In this document: in pieces, positions 2,808 through 8,454 of the stretch | Numbering within the stretch: the stretch's first letter is position 1 | Layout of the letters: each line of letters begins with the position of its first letter | Assembly (NCBI GenBank): GCA_903831545.1 | Contig: CAIKYI010000524.1 | Coordinates: 1 to 31,685 of the forward strand | Direction of reading: 5' to 3' | Origin: an uncultured Methylobacter sp. | Lineage (GTDB): Bacteria; Pseudomonadota; Gammaproteobacteria; Methylococcales; Methylomonadaceae | DNA: 31,685 bases | Program-made: the position numbers and the translations under genes | Notes under the pieces: generated by a model | The model's input: only the letters and a program-made list of their open reading frames with translations | What the model was told of the DNA's origin: nothing | The model's database searches: none

Positions 2808-2835
2808 TTGACATAAATATATTATTTGCTATAAT
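2808..2835 (+). promoter_or_regulatory. Sigma-70 promoter
   Basis: Consensus TTGACA (2808-2813), 16-bp spacer, consensus TATAAT (2830-2835), with an extended -10 TGC just upstream. It starts immediately after a stop codon and precedes the ribbon-helix-helix candidate at 2863. Confidence 0.9.
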
Positions 2836-2862
2836 GATATTAATAATTAATTAAGCAATTTT

Positions 2863-3009
2863 ATGACTAAAGAAGAGCGTGCAAAACGTAAAGTCGTAAA
2901 CTTGAAAATCCAACTTTCAACTCATCAACTATTGATGAATGAAAAGGCTAAAACCTACACATCTATAAACGATTTGGTGGAGGCAGCGATTATCAAGGTT
3001 TACAAATAA
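2863..3009 (+). CDS. Ribbon-helix-helix-like DNA-binding protein, 48 aa
   Basis: Too short for most gene callers, but it has its own consensus promoter. A basic N-terminus (TKEERAKRK) is followed by a strand-like segment VVNLKIQLS, then two helices (THQLLMNEKAKTY and SINDLVEAAIIKVYK). This is the ribbon-helix-helix layout of MetJ/Arc dimers, which bind inverted or direct repeats. An imperfect 10-bp inverted repeat lies 43 nt downstream, before the next gene, and is a candidate operator. No family hit could be checked. Confidence 0.6.
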   Translation: MTKEERAKRKVVNLKIQLSTHQLLMNEKAKTYTSINDLVEAAIIKVYK

Positions 3010-3039
3010 AAAATCCGCCCGGTTAAGAACAGATTTTTT
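3008..3039 (+). terminator. Weak terminator-like hairpin
   Basis: An 8-bp A/T-rich stem (AAAAAATC/GATTTTTT) with a 16-nt loop overlaps the stop codon of the ribbon-helix-helix candidate. Its 3' arm is itself a T-run. Low GC makes termination uncertain. Confidence 0.35.
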
Positions 3040-3052
3040 ACTAATTTAATAC

Positions 3053-3643: not shown

Positions 3644-4249
3644 ATGAAAAGACTATTACAATTTCAAGCACAGGTTGGTGCTATTACAAAGGACTCAACT
3701 AATCCTTTTTATAAGAGTCGATATTTTGACATCAATAAACTAATAGAAGTTATTAACCCAGTATTAACCAAAAACGACCTTGTTATTTTACAGCCTCTAA
3801 CCACAGTTGACGGTAAGCCAGCCATTAAAACAATGATTATTGGAGCCAGTGATGGTGTGGTGTTAGTAGAAGATAAAGTTATCATCCCAGAGATAAACGA
3901 CCCTCAAAAAATGGGAGCATGTATAACTTATTTTAGACGATACTCACTACAGTCAATATTACTACTAGAAGCAGAGGACGATGATGCGAACTCGACCACT
4001 AAGCCACCAGTAAGTTATCAACAGCCAGCTAAAAGTTACTCAAGCCAAGTAATCCAAAATAAGATGGCAGAGGAAAAGAAAGTTGGGGATAAGTGTGAAA
4101 AATGTGGAGCACCACTAGCCAAATCAATGCAAGGTAAAATATATTGCTCAGCTAAGTGTTGGTTACATCAAGAAGAGCCTCTGCCAGTAATCCAGCAGGA
4201 CGACTTTGCAATAGACAACAAACAAATCAATGATATATTCCCTTATTAA
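3644..4249 (+). CDS. erf: ERF-family single-strand annealing protein with C-terminal zinc finger
   Basis: A 201-aa protein. The N-terminal 115 residues carry ERF hallmarks: FQAQVGAITKDSTNPFYKSRYFDINKLIE and DPQKMGACITYFRRYSLQSIL ending in EAEDDDAN. ERF proteins form rings that bind single-stranded DNA and anneal complementary strands during phage recombination or genome circularisation. A flexible linker leads to a C-terminal zinc finger (Cys151, Cys154, Cys168, Cys172), which may add DNA binding or recruit a partner. The frame is open from a TTG at 3617, but ATG 3644 follows the previous stop by 1 nt and starts the conserved domain. Confidence 0.88.
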   Translation: MKRLLQFQAQVGAITKDSTNPFYKSRYFDINKLIEVINPVLTKNDLVILQPLTTVDGKPAIKTMIIGASDGVVLVEDKVIIPEINDPQKMGACITYFRRYSLQSILLLEAEDDDANSTTKPPVSYQQPAKSYSSQVIQNKMAEEKKVGDKCEKCGAPLAKSMQGKIYCSAKCWLHQEEPLPVIQQDDFAIDNKQINDIFPY

Positions 4250-4262
4250 TTAAAAAAACACT

Positions 4263-4373
4263 ATGACAAACTACAAGTACTTATCAATCGCACTAGGCGT
4301 AGCATTTATTGGCTCAAGCTTAATCGCTCTTACAGCCATCCTAGCTTTTAATGAAATATCAAATTTAATTTAA
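4263..4373 (+). CDS. 36-aa single-pass membrane peptide
   Basis: A short polar N-terminus, then a hydrophobic stretch at about residues 6-28 (LSIALGVAFIGSSLIALTAIL) and a short tail. Starts in the CACTATG context after ERF. Membrane peptides of this size in early regions can mediate exclusion or lysis timing; none is recognised here. Confidence 0.5.
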   Translation: MTNYKYLSIALGVAFIGSSLIALTAILAFNEISNLI

Positions 4374-4377
4374 AACT

Positions 4378-4536
4378 ATGCAAGAAATATTAGGATTAAT
4401 TATGCTTTATGCAACCGGACACTTCTTTGTAATACAACAAAAAGGATGGGCCAATTTAAATCAGTATGAAAAAGTTGTCAGCGTAGTAGCGATGATATCA
4501 ATAGCACTTATTTATATAGGAATTATTACCGAATAA
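4378..4536 (+). CDS. 52-aa membrane protein
   Basis: Two hydrophobic segments (about residues 2-19 and 33-50) separated by a polar loop (QQKGWANLNQYEK). Starts 4 nt after the previous stop with TAAAACTATG. Its stop codon is the first base of a block (4532-4544) repeated at 7820, where a structured RNA begins. Function unknown. Confidence 0.5.
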   Translation: MQEILGLIMLYATGHFFVIQQKGWANLNQYEKVVSVVAMISIALIYIGIITE

Positions 4537-4580
4537 AACCACTTCTCTGCTCGTTTACACGGGCAGGATAGTGAGGTTAT
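4537..4580 (+). ncRNA. 5' hairpin block of structured RNA region A
   Basis: An inner 7-bp stem CTGCTCG/CGGGCAG with a 6-nt loop (4547-4553/4560-4566) is enclosed by AACCACT pairing with AGTG..GTT around a 2-nt bulge. The start AATAAAACCACTT (4532) and AGGATA (4565) recur at the same spacing at 7820 and 7853, with one base pair changed on both sides (G-C here, A-T there). It is the left part of a 596-nt stretch without a gene (4537-5132). Confidence 0.6.
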
Positions 4581-4589
4581 TTAAAAGCC

Positions 4590-4618
4590 TTGACAAATTT
4601 GCCAAATTAGATTAAGAT
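4590..4618 (+). promoter_or_regulatory. Promoter for the attenuator-like RNA
   Basis: Consensus TTGACA (4590-4595), 17-bp spacer, TAAGAT (4613-4618, 4 of 6). The spacer contains a TGCCAA half-site of the element also seen at 1345 and 6028. Expected start is near 4625, inside the gene-free block. Confidence 0.6.
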
Positions 4619-4624
4619 ACGAAT

Positions 4625-4735
4625 ACAACCTACTTCTAAACGTTCAAACAAAGCAGTAGTTCTATTGCCTTGAGACCTTAATTGGTCAACCCTTTGAACG
4701 GGGTAGAGGCAAGGCAATAGAATTGTTGCTTTTTT
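4625..4735 (+). ncRNA. Small RNA or attenuator with 23-bp terminator hairpin
   Basis: Bases 4650-4672 pair with 4710-4732 without interruption (23 bp, three G-U), and six T follow, a very strong intrinsic terminator. Its 37-nt loop holds a GACC/GGTC hairpin (4674-4687) and TTTGAACG (4693-4700), a perfect complement of CGTTCAAA (4641-4648) just upstream of the stem. The upstream pairing, extended by CTAC/GTAG (4630-4633/4703-4706), would block the terminator's 5' arm, so the two folds exclude each other. This is attenuator logic placed 8 nt before a tRNA. A stand-alone sRNA is the alternative. Confidence 0.65.
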
Positions 4736-4743
4736 ATATATAT

Positions 4744-4814
4744 AGCTGGTTAGAGAAGTGGCAACTCGCAGGGCTCATAATCCTGAGACCTCGGTTCGAA
4801 TCCGAGACTAGCAA
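4744..4814 (+). tRNA. tRNA-Met (CAT), initiator-like
   Basis: Full cloverleaf: acceptor AGCTGGT/ACTAGCA, D stem GAG/CTC, anticodon stem CAGGG/TCCTG with loop CTCATAA (anticodon CAT at 4776-4778), T arm CTCGG-TTCGAAT-CCGAG. Several features match bacterial initiator rather than elongator tRNA-Met: unpaired first position (A1/A72), A11-U24 in the D stem, G29-G30-G31 facing UCC, and a CTCG..GGGCTCATAA core as in tRNA-fMet. The variable loop is 4 nt and no CCA is encoded. tRNA-Ile2 (CAT) is less likely because of A11-U24 and the 1-72 mismatch. Confidence 0.8.
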
Positions 4815-4847
4815 CTGAAATTATACAATTTATCTTCAAGTTTATTT

Positions 4848-5117
4848 CAAGGTTCATACTTACAAAAAGAACCTCGGATAGCATCTAGTGAGACATCACC
4901 TGATAGCGTTAAGTCTTTAATCATAGTAGTCACCTGTCAATTAAAATTAGTTGCTAGATGACTATGATGAACCAGCCCAAGACTGAACATCCACCGTAAC
5001 AACGGAAACATACCGAAAGGTCTCCAAATCCTTGCCTGACTAGCATTGTGATAGGAATGAAGAATAATAAATATATAAACAGCATGCTAACTCACATAAT
5101 GACTAGTATGGGCTGGG
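4848..5117 (+). ncRNA. Large structured RNA, region A
   Basis: A gene-free stretch between the tRNA and 5133 with many stems: AGGTTC/GAACCT (4850-4855/4869-4874); a 10-bp helix 4882-4891/4951-4960 crossed by ATCATAG/CTATGAT (4920-4926/4962-4968); CCGT-AACA-ACGG (4994-5005); ACC-GAAA-GGT with a GNRA tetraloop (5012-5021); a 13-bp helix 5039-5051/5092-5107 with two small bulges; and a closing helix CCAGCCCA/TGGGCTGG (4972-4979/5109-5116). The last four form one closed multibranch domain. CAAGGTTCAT (4848) and GAACCAGC (4969) recur in the same order in region B. I do not recognise an Rfam class; phage giant RNAs of the GOLLD type also lie near tRNAs. Confidence 0.6.
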
Positions 5118-5132
5118 TATTATCTAAAATAT

Positions 5133-5441
5133 ATGGAGTATTTACCAAGTTTAAAAGAGTTAAATGGAGAGATGGGACTAGAGCCAGTTACTAAAATAAT
5201 TGGCAAAAAAAAGAAAAGAGAAGAACAGCAAATTAGATTGCCTGGAGGTGGTGAAGTTTGTAGGCATTGCGGTACAGTCATGGAGAGAAGAGGTTGGAAA
5301 AGGGCAAGTCAGAAAGAGCTAGATAGACCATTCTATTATGCTCAATGGGACAAGTGCGATGACTGCGGAAGAATTTACATGTATGAGAAATATAAGGTAT
5401 ATGACAAAAAGCAACCATGGGAACTTAATATATTTAAATAA
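5133..5441 (+). CDS. Zinc-ribbon protein, 102 aa
   Basis: A Lys-rich N-terminal half (IIGKKKKREEQQIR) is followed by a two-pair zinc ribbon: CRHC at about residues 43-46 and CDDC at about 75-78, separated by a basic, aromatic segment. ATG 5133 has the AAAATATATG context at the end of the structured RNA region. A nucleic-acid-binding role is likely but the family is not recognised. Confidence 0.6.
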   Translation: MEYLPSLKELNGEMGLEPVTKIIGKKKKREEQQIRLPGGGEVCRHCGTVMERRGWKRASQKELDRPFYYAQWDKCDDCGRIYMYEKYKVYDKKQPWELNIFK

Positions 5442-5446
5442 ACAAT

Positions 5447-5851
5447 ATGCGTACAATAAAATTTAGCTACATTTTTCAACATGAAGATACTGGTAGATAT
5501 ACTGAAAAGATTTTTGATTACTTAGGGCTATATCTTGGTTATGTAAAAAATTACTTAGATACTAACATGATTAGATGTATTGTTGTTGCCAAAAGACAAT
5601 TTACAGGACTAACCGACAAAAACGGAAAAGAGATTTATGAGGGGGATATTGTTGAGTGGGGCATGGATGGAGAAGAAATAACTATTAGGAGAGCGGTTGT
5701 AAATATTGACCCAGACATACAGTTTCAAAGATTTAATGATGTTGATTATGCATTCCAGTTCGGTAGCTTTGCTTATCAAGATACAGAAAATCATTTAGTG
5801 GTAATCGGCAACATCTACGAAAACCCTGAATTATTAAATAAAACAGCATGA
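5447..5851 (+). CDS. YopX-family protein
   Basis: A 134-aa protein with the YopX signature QFTGLTDKNGKEIYEGDIVEW at about residues 51-71, a middle part of variable strands, and the usual ending VVIGNIYENPELL. YopX proteins are small phage proteins of unresolved function, often found in accessory regions between replication and packaging genes. Here it is translationally coupled to the next gene by ATGA. Confidence 0.85.
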   Translation: MRTIKFSYIFQHEDTGRYTEKIFDYLGLYLGYVKNYLDTNMIRCIVVAKRQFTGLTDKNGKEIYEGDIVEWGMDGEEITIRRAVVNIDPDIQFQRFNDVDYAFQFGSFAYQDTENHLVVIGNIYENPELLNKTA

Positions 5852-6027
5852 ACCCTCAAAAAGTAACCAAGATAATATCAGACCTTAAGGCTGGTTTACC
5901 AATACCAAGAAAGACTAAGCAAGTGGCAATTGGCTTTTTACAGAACGTACAGAGTAAGCACAAGAATGCTGGAAAGGTTGAAGAAGAGGAGGCTATCAAG
6001 AAAGCGATTGAATTTCTTAATAAATAA
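5848..6027 (+). CDS. Hypothetical 59-aa helical protein
   Basis: Starts in an ATGA overlap with the YopX gene. Basic N-terminal half (MNPQKVTKIISDLKAGLPIPRKTKQV) and acidic helical end (VEEEEAIKKAIEFLNK). No family recognised. Confidence 0.5.
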   Translation: MNPQKVTKIISDLKAGLPIPRKTKQVAIGFLQNVQSKHKNAGKVEEEEAIKKAIEFLNK

Positions 6028-6043
6028 TTGGCAAAATTTGGCA
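6028..6043 (-). promoter_or_regulatory. TGCCAA direct-repeat element
   Basis: On the minus strand this reads TGCCAA-ATTT-TGCCAA, a direct repeat one helical turn apart, matching the element at 1345 at 14 of 16 positions. It starts right after a stop codon in a 112-nt gap (6028-6139) that otherwise shows no gene or clear promoter. Confidence 0.3.
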
Positions 6044-6139
6044 TTTTAAAAACACAAGGTACAATCTATCGGGCATAGTTAAAAAATCGCACCACACCCC
6101 CTAATTTGCCCAAATATGAGGGTTTAAAAAGCAAAGTCT

Positions 6140-6574
6140 ATGATACTAAAAGCTAAAATATCTAATGCTGACATAAAATGGGAAAATCCTGCCATAGTTT
6201 TGGCTGAACTTTCTAAGATGGGCGATGTCGAAGTTGTGGTAGAAATTAAGAAAGCCAAACACCTCCGGACCCTAAGACAAAACTCCGCAATTCATCTTTA
6301 CTTGAGCCAACTAGCAGAAAGTTTAAATTCAGCAGGATTTGATGTTAAAAAGACTATCCGGCAAGAAGTAGAAATACCTTGGTCAGCTTATAACTGCAAA
6401 GAACTTCTGTGGCGACCTGTGCAACAGGCTATGTTAGGTAAGAAATCAACAACCGAGCTTGAGAAAAAGGATGTCGATAAAATTTACGATATAATCAATA
6501 AGACTATCGGAGAAAGGACCGGAGTGCATTGTCCATTTCCAAATATTGAAACTATATATGAAGAAAGGTTTTAA
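6140..6574 (+). CDS. NinB-like recombination protein
   Basis: A 144-aa protein with the pattern LRTLRQNSAIHLYLSQLAESLNSAGFDVKKT, EIPWSAYNCKELLWRPVQQAMLGKKSTTEL and a C-terminal KIYDIINKTIGERTGV. This matches the phage family often annotated as NinB-like, related to lambda Orf, which helps load recombination proteins on single-stranded DNA. With ERF upstream and a NinG-like gene downstream the context is consistent. The family name is from memory of the motif, so function is moderately certain. Confidence 0.6.
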   Translation: MILKAKISNADIKWENPAIVLAELSKMGDVEVVVEIKKAKHLRTLRQNSAIHLYLSQLAESLNSAGFDVKKTIRQEVEIPWSAYNCKELLWRPVQQAMLGKKSTTELEKKDVDKIYDIINKTIGERTGVHCPFPNIETIYEERF

Positions 6575-6857
6575 TTCAAAACAGGAAATAGTGTCGGCAC
6601 TTCTGGCTTGTGGATATAAGCTTTACGGAGAAAACGATAACTGGTTTTTTAAAAAAGATATTTGGAACCCAACCATTCACCCAATGCTAAGACACCATTT
6701 TCATGCCATTATAGATTATAACTGCCAAATTCTTAACCTGCATATAGATAAGCCAGTTCGCATAAATAAACATAAAACAATGCAAAAAGGCGATGCCATT
6801 CAGTCGGAAATGGATAGCATAAGTAATATAATAGATAAAATGATAATAAATGCCTAA
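6558..6857 (+). CDS. Hypothetical 99-aa protein
   Basis: Overlaps the NinB-like gene by 17 nt. I use ATG 6558 (TATATATG context), though an in-frame TTG at 6546 would add four residues. The product is rich in His and aromatic residues (WNPTIHPMLRHHFHAII) with a Lys/Arg patch near the middle and a helical end. His residues might bind metal, but no known motif fits. Confidence 0.55.
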   Translation: MKKGFNSKQEIVSALLACGYKLYGENDNWFFKKDIWNPTIHPMLRHHFHAIIDYNCQILNLHIDKPVRINKHKTMQKGDAIQSEMDSISNIIDKMIINA

Positions 6858-6978
6858 ATATTACTGCACAAAAAATAAATCAGACATAGCTTACCCTAAG
6901 GTTTTAGCAGTGTGTTTGTTGAAAAGTTGTCCGTTTTTAAAAAGATTAAATAAAACCCATGCTAAAAGAAAAAGGTAA
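6850..6978 (+). CDS. Small basic Cys-containing protein, 42 aa
   Basis: ATG 6850 overlaps the previous gene by 8 nt, and the frame ends 20 nt into the NinG-like gene. The product MPKYYCTKNKSDIAYPKVLAV... has three cysteines and a very basic tail (LNKTHAKRKR). Overlap at both ends is the only support beyond an open frame. Confidence 0.35.
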   Translation: MPKYYCTKNKSDIAYPKVLAVCLLKSCPFLKRLNKTHAKRKR

Positions 6979-7501
6979 ATGCAAAAAATGTGACAAAAAG
7001 AGATGTGCTAATGTGTCTTTATGTTTTACTCACTACAGGGAGGCTGAACGAGAAAAGAAACTAATGAAAAAAGAAAAATCCAAGCTTAGAAAGGAGAGCA
7101 GTAAGAAGTTTCAGGAAAGCGAAAGGAAAAAGCTACACAAAGAAGCGTGGAGGCTGATGAGTGAAATAGTGAGGCGTGACGGAGTAAATCTTGATGGTTA
7201 TGGCGAGTGTTATACTTGTGGGGCAGTAATTCACTGGACATCGGCAAACGCTGGACACTTCAAACACGACAGATTGGACTTTGACTTCAGAAATCTTAAG
7301 AGACAGTGCGTGGCTTGTAACCTACATCACTCCGGTAGGCTCGACGTCTACGCTGAGAAGTTGATAGAAGAGAATGGGTTAGAATGGTTTAAAAAGTTAT
7401 CCACTGACGCAAATGCTTATAATAAATATACTGTGGATAAACTAAAAGAAATCATAAAAGACCTGCAAAATAGGCGGTTATTACTACTTGACACTATTTG
7501 A
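6959..7501 (+). CDS. NinG / Rap-like recombination endonuclease
   Basis: A 180-aa protein. The N-terminus holds a short Cys cluster (CKKC, C16, C22, H25), then a highly charged helix (30-75). The C-terminal half has the NinG zinc/nuclease pattern: CYTC (84-87), AGHF (His100), FDFRNLKRQC (Cys117) and CNLHHSG (Cys120). Lambda NinG (Rap) is a Holliday-junction endonuclease that resolves recombination intermediates. ERF and NinB-like genes upstream support a full recombination module. The last bases overlap the promoter at 7488. Confidence 0.8.
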   Translation: MLKEKGKCKKCDKKRCANVSLCFTHYREAEREKKLMKKEKSKLRKESSKKFQESERKKLHKEAWRLMSEIVRRDGVNLDGYGECYTCGAVIHWTSANAGHFKHDRLDFDFRNLKRQCVACNLHHSGRLDVYAEKLIEENGLEWFKKLSTDANAYNKYTVDKLKEIIKDLQNRRLLLLDTI

Positions 7502-7516
7502 TATGTTTGATATATT
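7488..7516 (+). promoter_or_regulatory. Sigma-70 promoter, early class
   Basis: TTGACA (7488-7493), 17-bp spacer, TATATT (7511-7516) with extended -10 TG at 7508. It overlaps the 3' end of the NinG-like gene. At 25 of 29 positions it equals the promoter at 1372, spacer included, so both may answer to the same regulator. Predicted start is near 7523, at the first stem of the leader RNA. Confidence 0.85.
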
Positions 7517-7521
7517 TAAGA

Positions 7522-7597
7522 TGTTGAGGGAAATAAATCAGAATTCTGCACAAAACCCGTAGCCACTGCCCTCAACAAGCCGACTGAGGGTTTTGTG
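7522..7597 (+). ncRNA. 5' leader RNA with interlocking stems (pseudoknot or switch)
   Basis: TGTTGAGGG (7522-7530) pairs perfectly with CCCTCAACA (7569-7577), and CACAAAACCC (7549-7558) pairs perfectly with GGGTTTTGTG (7588-7597). The stems interlock, with linkers of 18, 10 and 10 nt, long enough for a pseudoknot. CCCTCA can instead pair with TGAGGG (7585-7590), giving an alternative fold. Transcription from the promoter at 7488 should begin at or within the first base of the first stem. The gene at 7615 starts 17 nt after the last stem. No known riboswitch class is recognised. Confidence 0.65.
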
Positions 7598-7614
7598 TTA
7601 GATTTAAAAACTAT

Positions 7615-7821
7615 ATGGAAAGAAAAGGCGTAAAAATTGGTGACAAATTTATGACACCCGGAAAATTCAAAAGAGAGGCAACCGTAGTAGATATTTATAC
7701 AGTAACTAATAGTCAAGGTGAAGTTGTTAGACACGAATGCATTGCGACTTATAGTCTAGGAGAGCAGAAAATGATATACAACGTAGCTTTTTCAACAGTA
7801 ATAATGAATAGGCTTAGATAA
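7615..7821 (+). CDS. 68-aa protein behind a structured leader
   Basis: Starts in the AAAACTATATG context. MERKGVKIGDKFMTPGKFKREATVVDIYTVTN... reads as a small beta barrel (strand-rich, KIGDKF...ATVVDIY...ECIATYSLGEQ), similar to short SH3/KOW-like phage proteins, but no family is certain. It is the only gene between a strong promoter with leader RNA and structured RNA region B. Confidence 0.6.
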   Translation: MERKGVKIGDKFMTPGKFKREATVVDIYTVTNSQGEVVRHECIATYSLGEQKMIYNVAFSTVIMNRLR

Positions 7822-8180
7822 TAAAACCGCTTGGCTACCGATTCTAAATAGTAGGATAACTGTTGGGGAGCAGCAAGCATCATAAACCTATAAAGTAGCA
7901 GAAAGGTTTATACTTTGAAATCAGGGGGTAAGGTGGGGTGAGTTATTACGCAAAACGAAAGGCAGTCTATGTGACTGAATAATCAAAACAAGGTTCATCG
8001 TTCCCATTAACTCAAATACCCCTATCGGCAGACCTAGGCATAGTACATTAAGGTAATGTCCCTGAATCAACAGGGTGTAACGACGCTAACCAGCACGCCT
8101 CTATCTGGTGTAAATTTTACACAATATGCGAACCAGCTAGTCGGACTATATAAAGCTGATGACCCTGCCCTCTGATTCTA
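7822..8180 (+). ncRNA. Large structured RNA, region B
   Basis: This 380-nt gap (7822-8201) has no open frame but many stems: GCTTG/CAAGC (7829-7833/7874-7878) around CTAC/GTAG (7835-7838/7851-7854); ATAAACCT/AGGTTTAT (7882-7889/7904-7911); long-range GGGGTA/TACCCC (7925-7930/8017-8022) and TGAGTTA/TAACTCA (7939-7945/8008-8014) enclosing CAGTC/GACTG (7963-7977); ACATTA/TAATGT (8045-8059); CCCTG/CAGGG (8060-8075); ACCAG/CTGGT (8089-8109); and GTGTAAA/TTTACAC (8108-8122). Blocks at 7820, 7853, 7989 and 8130 match region A in order. A genome-packed phage keeping this much folded non-coding sequence suggests a functional RNA. Confidence 0.6.
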
Positions 8181-8201
8181 AGGTAATTAATAAATAATAG
8201 T

Positions 8202-8357
8202 ATGAAAATATATACATACAAAGACATTGATGGAATTTTAAGACCAAGGGCTTTCGTTTCTTTTGAAGATGAAATTCAATACAGAGAAAAGGATGTTAAG
8301 GCAATGCTAAAAGATGGTGGCGAAATTGTTTTGTGTGAACTAACTGAAATTAAATAA
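8202..8357 (+). CDS. Hypothetical 51-aa protein
   Basis: First gene after structured RNA region B. MKIYTYKDIDGILRPRAFVSFEDEI... is acidic and strand/helix mixed, ending IVLCELTEIK. It is followed 1 nt later by the next ATG. Function unknown. Confidence 0.5.
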   Translation: MKIYTYKDIDGILRPRAFVSFEDEIQYREKDVKAMLKDGGEIVLCELTEIK

Positions 8358-8358
8358 T

Positions 8359-8454
8359 ATGGAAATAATAAAATTCATGTACGAGCACTGGTTCTTAACA
8401 ATGATATTCCTTAGTTGTTTTTCTGGTGCTAAGTGGTTAACTATTAATAAATAA
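8359..8454 (+). CDS. 31-aa membrane peptide
   Basis: MEIIKFMYEHWF... followed by a hydrophobic stretch (LTMIFLSCFSGA) and a short basic tail. Starts 1 nt after one stop and ends 1 nt before the next ATG, both in the TAATATG junction, which supports translation despite its size. Confidence 0.45.
   Translation: MEIIKFMYEHWFLTMIFLSCFSGAKWLTINK

Follow-up and report, generated by a model that had tools for sequence, protein, structure and literature searches.

In the lambda PR'-tR' unit (6S RNA), a strong promoter is followed by a terminator some 100-200 nucleotides (nt) on. Plasmid replication genes can be controlled by their leaders, as in PK-repZ (RF01087) and in pIP501-type repR attenuation, where a leader loop pairs elsewhere in the leader. 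The mRNA of T4 gene 32 carries an H-type pseudoknot near its 5' end that governs the next gene and works via that gene's own protein. The pseudoknot near the 5' end of tisB acts via a ribosome standby site, according to PMC7708055. The phage noncoding RNAs GOLLD and ROOL occur near tRNAs; in PMC12286853, one GOLLD lies downstream of a Met-tRNA. Here we describe two elements, leader pseudoknots 1 and 2, in a phage contig of 31,685 bases inside a metagenome-assembled genome (MAG); this whole stretch of DNA is referred to as the window. Each element lies behind a sigma-70-type promoter and is built from two interleaved helices, S1 and S2.

The elements belong to a known kind, the cis-acting leader RNA. 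They share with lambda PR'-tR' a strong promoter followed by a helix that is a putative terminator, the difference being that the loop of this helix here pairs back to the 5' end. Their loop pairing resembles that of the plasmid leaders, but they sit in a phage, antisense promoters are mostly absent, and the downstream genes in the window are not replication genes. An H-type pseudoknot near the transcript 5' end recalls tisB and gene 32, which lack the terminator-like S2 and T run seen at 4641-4732. As with GOLLD and ROOL, a phage noncoding RNA lies near a tRNA (tRNA-Met at 4744); GOLLD, however, often exceeds 800 nt, whereas the leader elements span 77-92 nt and the gene-free stretches A2 and B, discussed below, about 310 and 374 nt.

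The Rfam comparison, for which the sequence-only reading had named GOLLD and ROOL, gave the tRNA alone at gathering score in the whole window and, with E values up to 5 allowed, again only the tRNA at that score in 4200-8400. Both families should in principle be within the Rfam copy searched (PMC12286853 used profiles that come from Rfam). PK-repZ produced a chance-level match only, in the wrong place (6027-6076, E 1.7, 17.3 bits against a gathering score of 44), and was not found in 20 leader loci, where only tRNA reached the gathering score and no leader was matched. In eight family loci, tRNA was likewise alone at gathering score. Among open-licence PMC papers, a literature search yielded none that we recognised as describing such a phage leader.

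Interleaved helices behind two phage promoters

The first 12.5 kb of the window contain four + strand promoters whose TTGACA is perfect, at 1372, 2808, 4590 and 7488. Interleaved helices follow the promoters at 4590 and 7488, and not those at 1372 or 2808 (coordinates in Table 1). Transcription from the promoter at 4590 would start near 4625. At both sites, complementarity predicts the H-type order S1a-S2a-S1b-S2b, beginning 23 nt (pseudoknot 1) and 6 nt (pseudoknot 2) behind the second promoter hexamer and spanning 92 and 77 nt; both fit the rule used for the group, a promoter followed by interleaved helices that span 55-114 nt.

The S1 helix of pseudoknot 1 joins CGTTCAAA to its complement TTTGAACG. 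The latter, the 3' arm of S1, is also the 8-nt apical loop of an ACCC/GGGT hairpin (4689-4692/4701-4704) inside S2, and the end of S2 overlaps a run of six T (T6, 4730-4735). With its stem of 23 base pairs (bp), the T6 and S1 as an alternative pairing, this element has the traits of a terminator or attenuator; a simple terminator scan, which considered loops of 3-8 only, did not list 4650-4735. Pseudoknot 2 ends 16 nt ahead of the ATG at 7615.

The two elements score 63 and 47, values that 0 of 2000 local shuffles reached in either case, and the nested fold of pseudoknot 1 has a z of -6.16. A score of 63 is also clear of whole-window shuffles, while 47 alone is not; pseudoknot 2 is notable because it is placed 6 nt behind a promoter. 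Across the + strand of the window, scores of at least 45 are confined to 8 of 1578 overlapping 140-nt stretches, all of them at the two leader pseudoknots. We read both as 5'-leader control elements, probably attenuators, and give a probability of roughly 55% to the reading that two phage transcription units start at these promoters, their first 80-110 nt being leader RNAs of one architecture. The interleaved complementarity, the site behind promoters and the excess over shuffles are established, as is the recurrence of this architecture in other uncultivated phages, often before a replication gene and with unrelated sequences.

Recurrence ahead of replication genes

The large terminase of the window has IMG/VR relatives that are 48-70% identical over most of the protein and four more relatives in genome contigs with the MAG labels Parcubacteria, Methylococcaceae, 'bacterium' and Gammaproteobacteria; no close relative was found among cultured phages. 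The 43 related loci (957,572 nt counting both strands, with the window included and overlapping records kept) hold 92 promoter rows that match at least 10/12 positions and, on both strands, 19 pseudoknots with a score of at least 42. Four of the 19 have a promoter of at least 10/12 within 70 nt: both window elements and one each in L007 and L087. Among the other fetched loci, whose GC content differs from that of the related loci, 1 of 216 pseudoknots is promoter-linked in this way. Weaker promoters precede elements of like geometry in L081 (span 90 nt, 24 nt behind the second hexamer) and L066 (84 nt, 22 nt) and a larger element in L089 (140 nt, 16 nt), and L008 combines a score of 37 with an 11/12 promoter. 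DnaD-like genes come next after the elements of L081 and L066, Phage_rep_O genes after those of L087 and L008, and a primase-helicase gene after that of L089; the L007 element precedes an HNH protein. In L068, the replication initiation protein is preceded by a promoter-like site and by a closed RNA that carries a T run, with no pseudoknot by the rule.

The leaders of replication genes were scored in IMG/VR loci that had been fetched by their replication proteins, not by RNA, with near-copies removed and with rep_O represented by the best 80 of 493. Within 280 nt upstream, 12 of 56 DnaD-like loci reach a score of 40 (shuffles 0.6%, coding controls 0/56), as do 11 of 57 rep_O loci (shuffles 3.5%, coding controls 24/56). 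When restricted to leaders with a GC content below 50%, a score of at least 42 and 200 nt upstream, the test is positive for 9 of 53 DnaD-like and 6 of 30 rep_O leaders against 0.03 and 0.07 expected, and 7 and 5 of the positive leaders have a promoter of at least 9/12. Without the four loci that prompted the test, 7/51 and 5/28 are positive, 6 and 4 of these with such a promoter.

Under scoring that treats G-U and A-C symmetrically, the 19 promoter-linked leaders contain 36 G-U against 6 A-C pairs (L175 accounts for four of the six), a bias that suggests sense-strand RNA. In 13 of 16 leaders, 16-33 nt separate the S2 end from the protein match downstream, and in L158 S2 extends into the start codon. 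The T content around the S2 end is 5.69/12 against 3.88 in the surroundings (16 leaders), and the 3' arm of S1 forms an apical loop in 6 of 21 cases against 2.1 expected. A tRNA stands just upstream of the leader in L209 (1272-1344, Rfam) and, judged by eye, in L188; the tRNA of the window is on the other side of its element.

Table 1 Coordinates of the leader elements and other features of the window
Feature	Position	Strand	Details
Sigma-70-type promoter	4590..4618	+	TTGACA-17-TAAGAT (10/12)
Leader pseudoknot 1	4641..4732	+	S1 4641-4648/4693-4700 (8 bp); S2 4650-4672/4710-4732 (23 bp)
Sigma-70-type promoter	7488..7516	+	TTGACA-17-TATATT (11/12, TG ahead of second hexamer)
Leader pseudoknot 2	7522..7598	+	S1 7522-7530/7569-7577 (9 bp); S2 7548-7558/7588-7598 (11 bp)
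tRNA-Met (CAT)	4744..4815	+	ARAGORN; Rfam RF00005, 55.2 bits
Region A2, gene-free structured stretch	4816..5125	+	Helices 4851-4857/4967-4973, 4920-4927/4961-4968, 4972-4979/5109-5116
Open reading frame (ORF), 102 amino acids (aa)	5133..5441	+	First ORF of at least 60 aa past A2
ORF, 68 aa	7615..7821	+	phrog_28041 (unknown function), E 2e-7
Region B, gene-free with several hairpins	7822..8195	+	Fold z in text
ERF	3617
YopX	5447
NinB	6140
NinG	6959
Methylase	10563
Large terminase	12105
SU10-like portal	13685

Neither Pfam nor PHROG gave a match at 0.001 for the 102-aa ORF, and no protein relatives of this ORF, the 68-aa ORF or NinG were found in IMG/VR. The tRNA-Met appears initiator-like by marks that we take to be typical of initiators, namely unpaired A1 and A72, A11:U24, G29-C41, G30-C40 and G31.U39. 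The promoter at 2808 is perfect (12/12) and shares the stretch 2808-3040 with a 48-aa ORF (2863-3009), which by eye resembles a small ribbon-helix-helix regulator, and an AT-rich inverted repeat (3007-3040).

Further structured stretches were seen in other loci. In L091 (8327-8976), a 12/12 promoter is followed by a noncoding RNA of about 616 nt upstream of the terminase, with a terminator-like helix at its end; its fold is much stronger than those of 20 shuffles (z -6.07), and Rfam gave no match. The structured noncoding stretches 1021-1229 and 6110-6290 of the same locus seem, by eye, to have TTATTACCnCC ... GGCGATA around a stem in common and are possibly two copies of one element. L074 (1297-1740) combines a promoter-like site (10/12) and a terminator-like end with some 430 nt of noncoding sequence that is structured (z down to -5.2 for 150-nt pieces). 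A tRNA-like sequence found at L091:5900-5969 and, identically, at L076:540-609 apparently has no normal acceptor stem, since its Rfam match (30.5 bits) covers model positions 6-65 only, and L080 (2292-2510) is strongly structured, with a tRNA-like arm carrying CTCATAA. Among the terminase relatives, the gaps of L005 and parts of L008 and L074 were rejected, being occupied by opposite-strand genes or spurious.

Alternative explanations

Several observations weigh against leader RNAs of one architecture. Shuffling the whole window 60 times gave a top score that was likewise 47, the scoring rule was devised after the two window elements had been seen, and these elements precede tRNA-Met and the 68-aa ORF (phrog_28041), no recognised replication gene. 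Pseudoknot 2 lacks a T run, so termination is not common to all elements; in the leader set a T-rich S2 end is not universal, and the apical-loop excess is modest. In rep_O loci the raw score cannot be relied on, since coding controls reach 40 as well (24 of 56), and there the weight is carried only by the low-GC, promoter-linked part. Most leaders have no strong pseudoknot (44 of 56 DnaD-like leaders at score 40), and 0 of 10 cultured phages with DnaD- or O-like genes had one at score 38; in annotated records, these genes of cultured phages are tightly packed against the preceding gene. None of the leaders could be aligned to another except near-copies, and the lack of alignable diverged copies precluded a classical covariation test.

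The main rival is that the leader pseudoknots control translation or stability, not termination: the ribosome could be recruited or held back, as at the tisB standby site, a phage protein could feed back on its own mRNA, as with T4 gene 32, or the 5' end could be shielded from decay. Such roles would suit elements that start near the 5' end and mostly stop 16-33 nt before the protein match, as well as the S2 of L158 that reaches the start codon, and PMC7708055 describes the 5' pseudoknot of tisB as essential for standby translation. At 4641-4732, however, S2 ends in T6 and the next gene is a tRNA, which is untranslated, and the T content is raised at S2 ends among the leaders; we consider this explanation unlikely.

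Alternatively, the elements could be antisense-controlled attenuators as in the plasmid leaders, where a counter-transcript binds the leader and S2 then terminates. The site before a replication gene is the same, and so is the terminator-like helix with a loop that pairs upstream, yet an antisense promoter of at least 10/12 near the replication gene start was found in only 1 of 16 leaders, which makes control of the plasmid type improbable; around the two window elements, the stretches tested had none. It is quite improbable that DNA sites (operators, iterons or origin hairpins) that mimic RNA account for the interleaved repeats: rep_O coding regions are rich in such repeats (24/56) and a palindrome lies across the L066 promoter, but the G-U excess, the location behind promoters and the unrelated sequences of S1 and S2 argue against it.

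The sequence-only reading had placed the structured RNA elsewhere, in two gene-free regions, A and B, taken as two copies of one undescribed class. All of its strings are present: AATAAAACC(A/G)CTT at 4532 and 7820, AGGATA 33 nt on at 4565 and 7853, CAAGGTTCAT at 4848 and 7989, and GAACCAGC at 4969 and 8130. The stretches 4537-5047 and 7822-8201 contain no + strand ORF of at least 40 aa, in agreement with the gene-free description. Both regions have a stop codon at the first block, but its relative place differs (4534-4536 in A, 7819-7821 in B). The hairpins CTGC/GCAG and CTAC/GTAG do stand at equal offsets, but the change described as compensatory is a single pair of one weak helix; in the predicted fold, the A hairpin has 9 bp and the B hairpin (4 bp, loop of 12 nt) is absent. 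CAAGGTTCAT and GAACCAGC hold opposite arms of one helix, GGTTCAT/ATGAACC in A and, as read from the sequence, GGTTC/GAACC in B.

As a whole, the likeness of A and B is no better than that of shuffled sequence, the outcome by which the sequence-only reading had itself proposed to judge common origin. Of 200 shuffled pairs, 141 equalled or exceeded the best local alignment score, as did 150 of 200 with 4581-4815 dropped from A. A collinear 10-mer and 8-mer whose spacings agree to within 25 nt occurred in 95 of 2000 pairs when these were shuffled and in 186 of 2000 when they were real pairs drawn at random (window stretches with the lengths of A and B), and the total chain length was reached by 49 and 239 of 2000, respectively. 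The first block is the most unusual part: 25 of the first 40 nt are identical, and among window sites that start with AATAAA only 6 of 1532 pairs reach this value. Searching IMG/VR for the pattern CAAGGTTCAT-N-GAACCAGC gave 42 stretches; these appear not to be noncoding-RNA relatives, since 41 of them sit in stop-free frames of at least 115 codons (the remaining one, in L032, in a 38-codon frame).

A2 folds better than shuffles (z -2.92, 0/100) and includes a weaker interleaved pair (4882-4968, score 35), whereas the fold of B is weak (z -1.87, 3/100 shuffles), and a coarse scan found none of its 150-nt pieces under z -3. No alignable relative was found for A or B: the DNA search of the phage collection gave tRNA-level and weak matches for region A and none for region B, and among 61 relatives of the MAG region B matched only the MAG itself. 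Despite the similar first block with its equally spaced AGGATA, the gene-free state of both regions and the structure of A2, it is very improbable that A and B are copies of one RNA, given alignment and chain statistics that are hardly, if at all, beyond chance, the weak B fold and the open frames around the pattern. We regard A2 and B as two distinct gene-free stretches and find no origin common to both. A pair of undescribed structured RNAs does exist, not in A and B or their shared blocks but at 4641-4732 and 7522-7598: the attenuator-like hairpin taken as an extra of region A is leader pseudoknot 1, and leader pseudoknot 2 falls between the two regions.

Proposed leader switch

For the leader RNAs behind the two promoters, we propose that the 5' segment S1a would pair with a segment in the loop of the later helix S2, which would finish in or near a U-rich stretch shortly before the next gene. 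S1 would form first during transcription by RNA polymerase and then compete with S2 or knot it, and S2 could act as a terminator or as a gate over the start of the next gene. The balance of S1 and S2 would set the output of the downstream gene, here tRNA-Met at 4744 and the 68-aa ORF at 7615, and replication initiators in relatives. At 4641-4732, full S1 and S2 are expected to be mutually exclusive and to form an either-or switch, because the link is 1 nt against a helix of 23 bp; a rough rule gives the same result for L133, L147, L174 and L234. At 7522-7598, a true pseudoknot should be possible because the link is 17 nt against 11 bp.

More tentatively, the elements may represent an unrecognised, widespread group of phage leader RNAs that keeps its architecture, leaves its sequence free and times the expression of replication initiators; the window would use it twice, before an initiator-like tRNA-Met and a small early protein. 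The work offers a testable element of about 100 nt with its own promoter, together with a simple descriptor to find more. If the proposal is true, replication timing in some uncultivated phages would be encoded in a short leader RNA, one that escapes sequence-based searches because the pairing pattern alone is kept, which would explain how Rfam-style covariance searches may overlook such RNAs.

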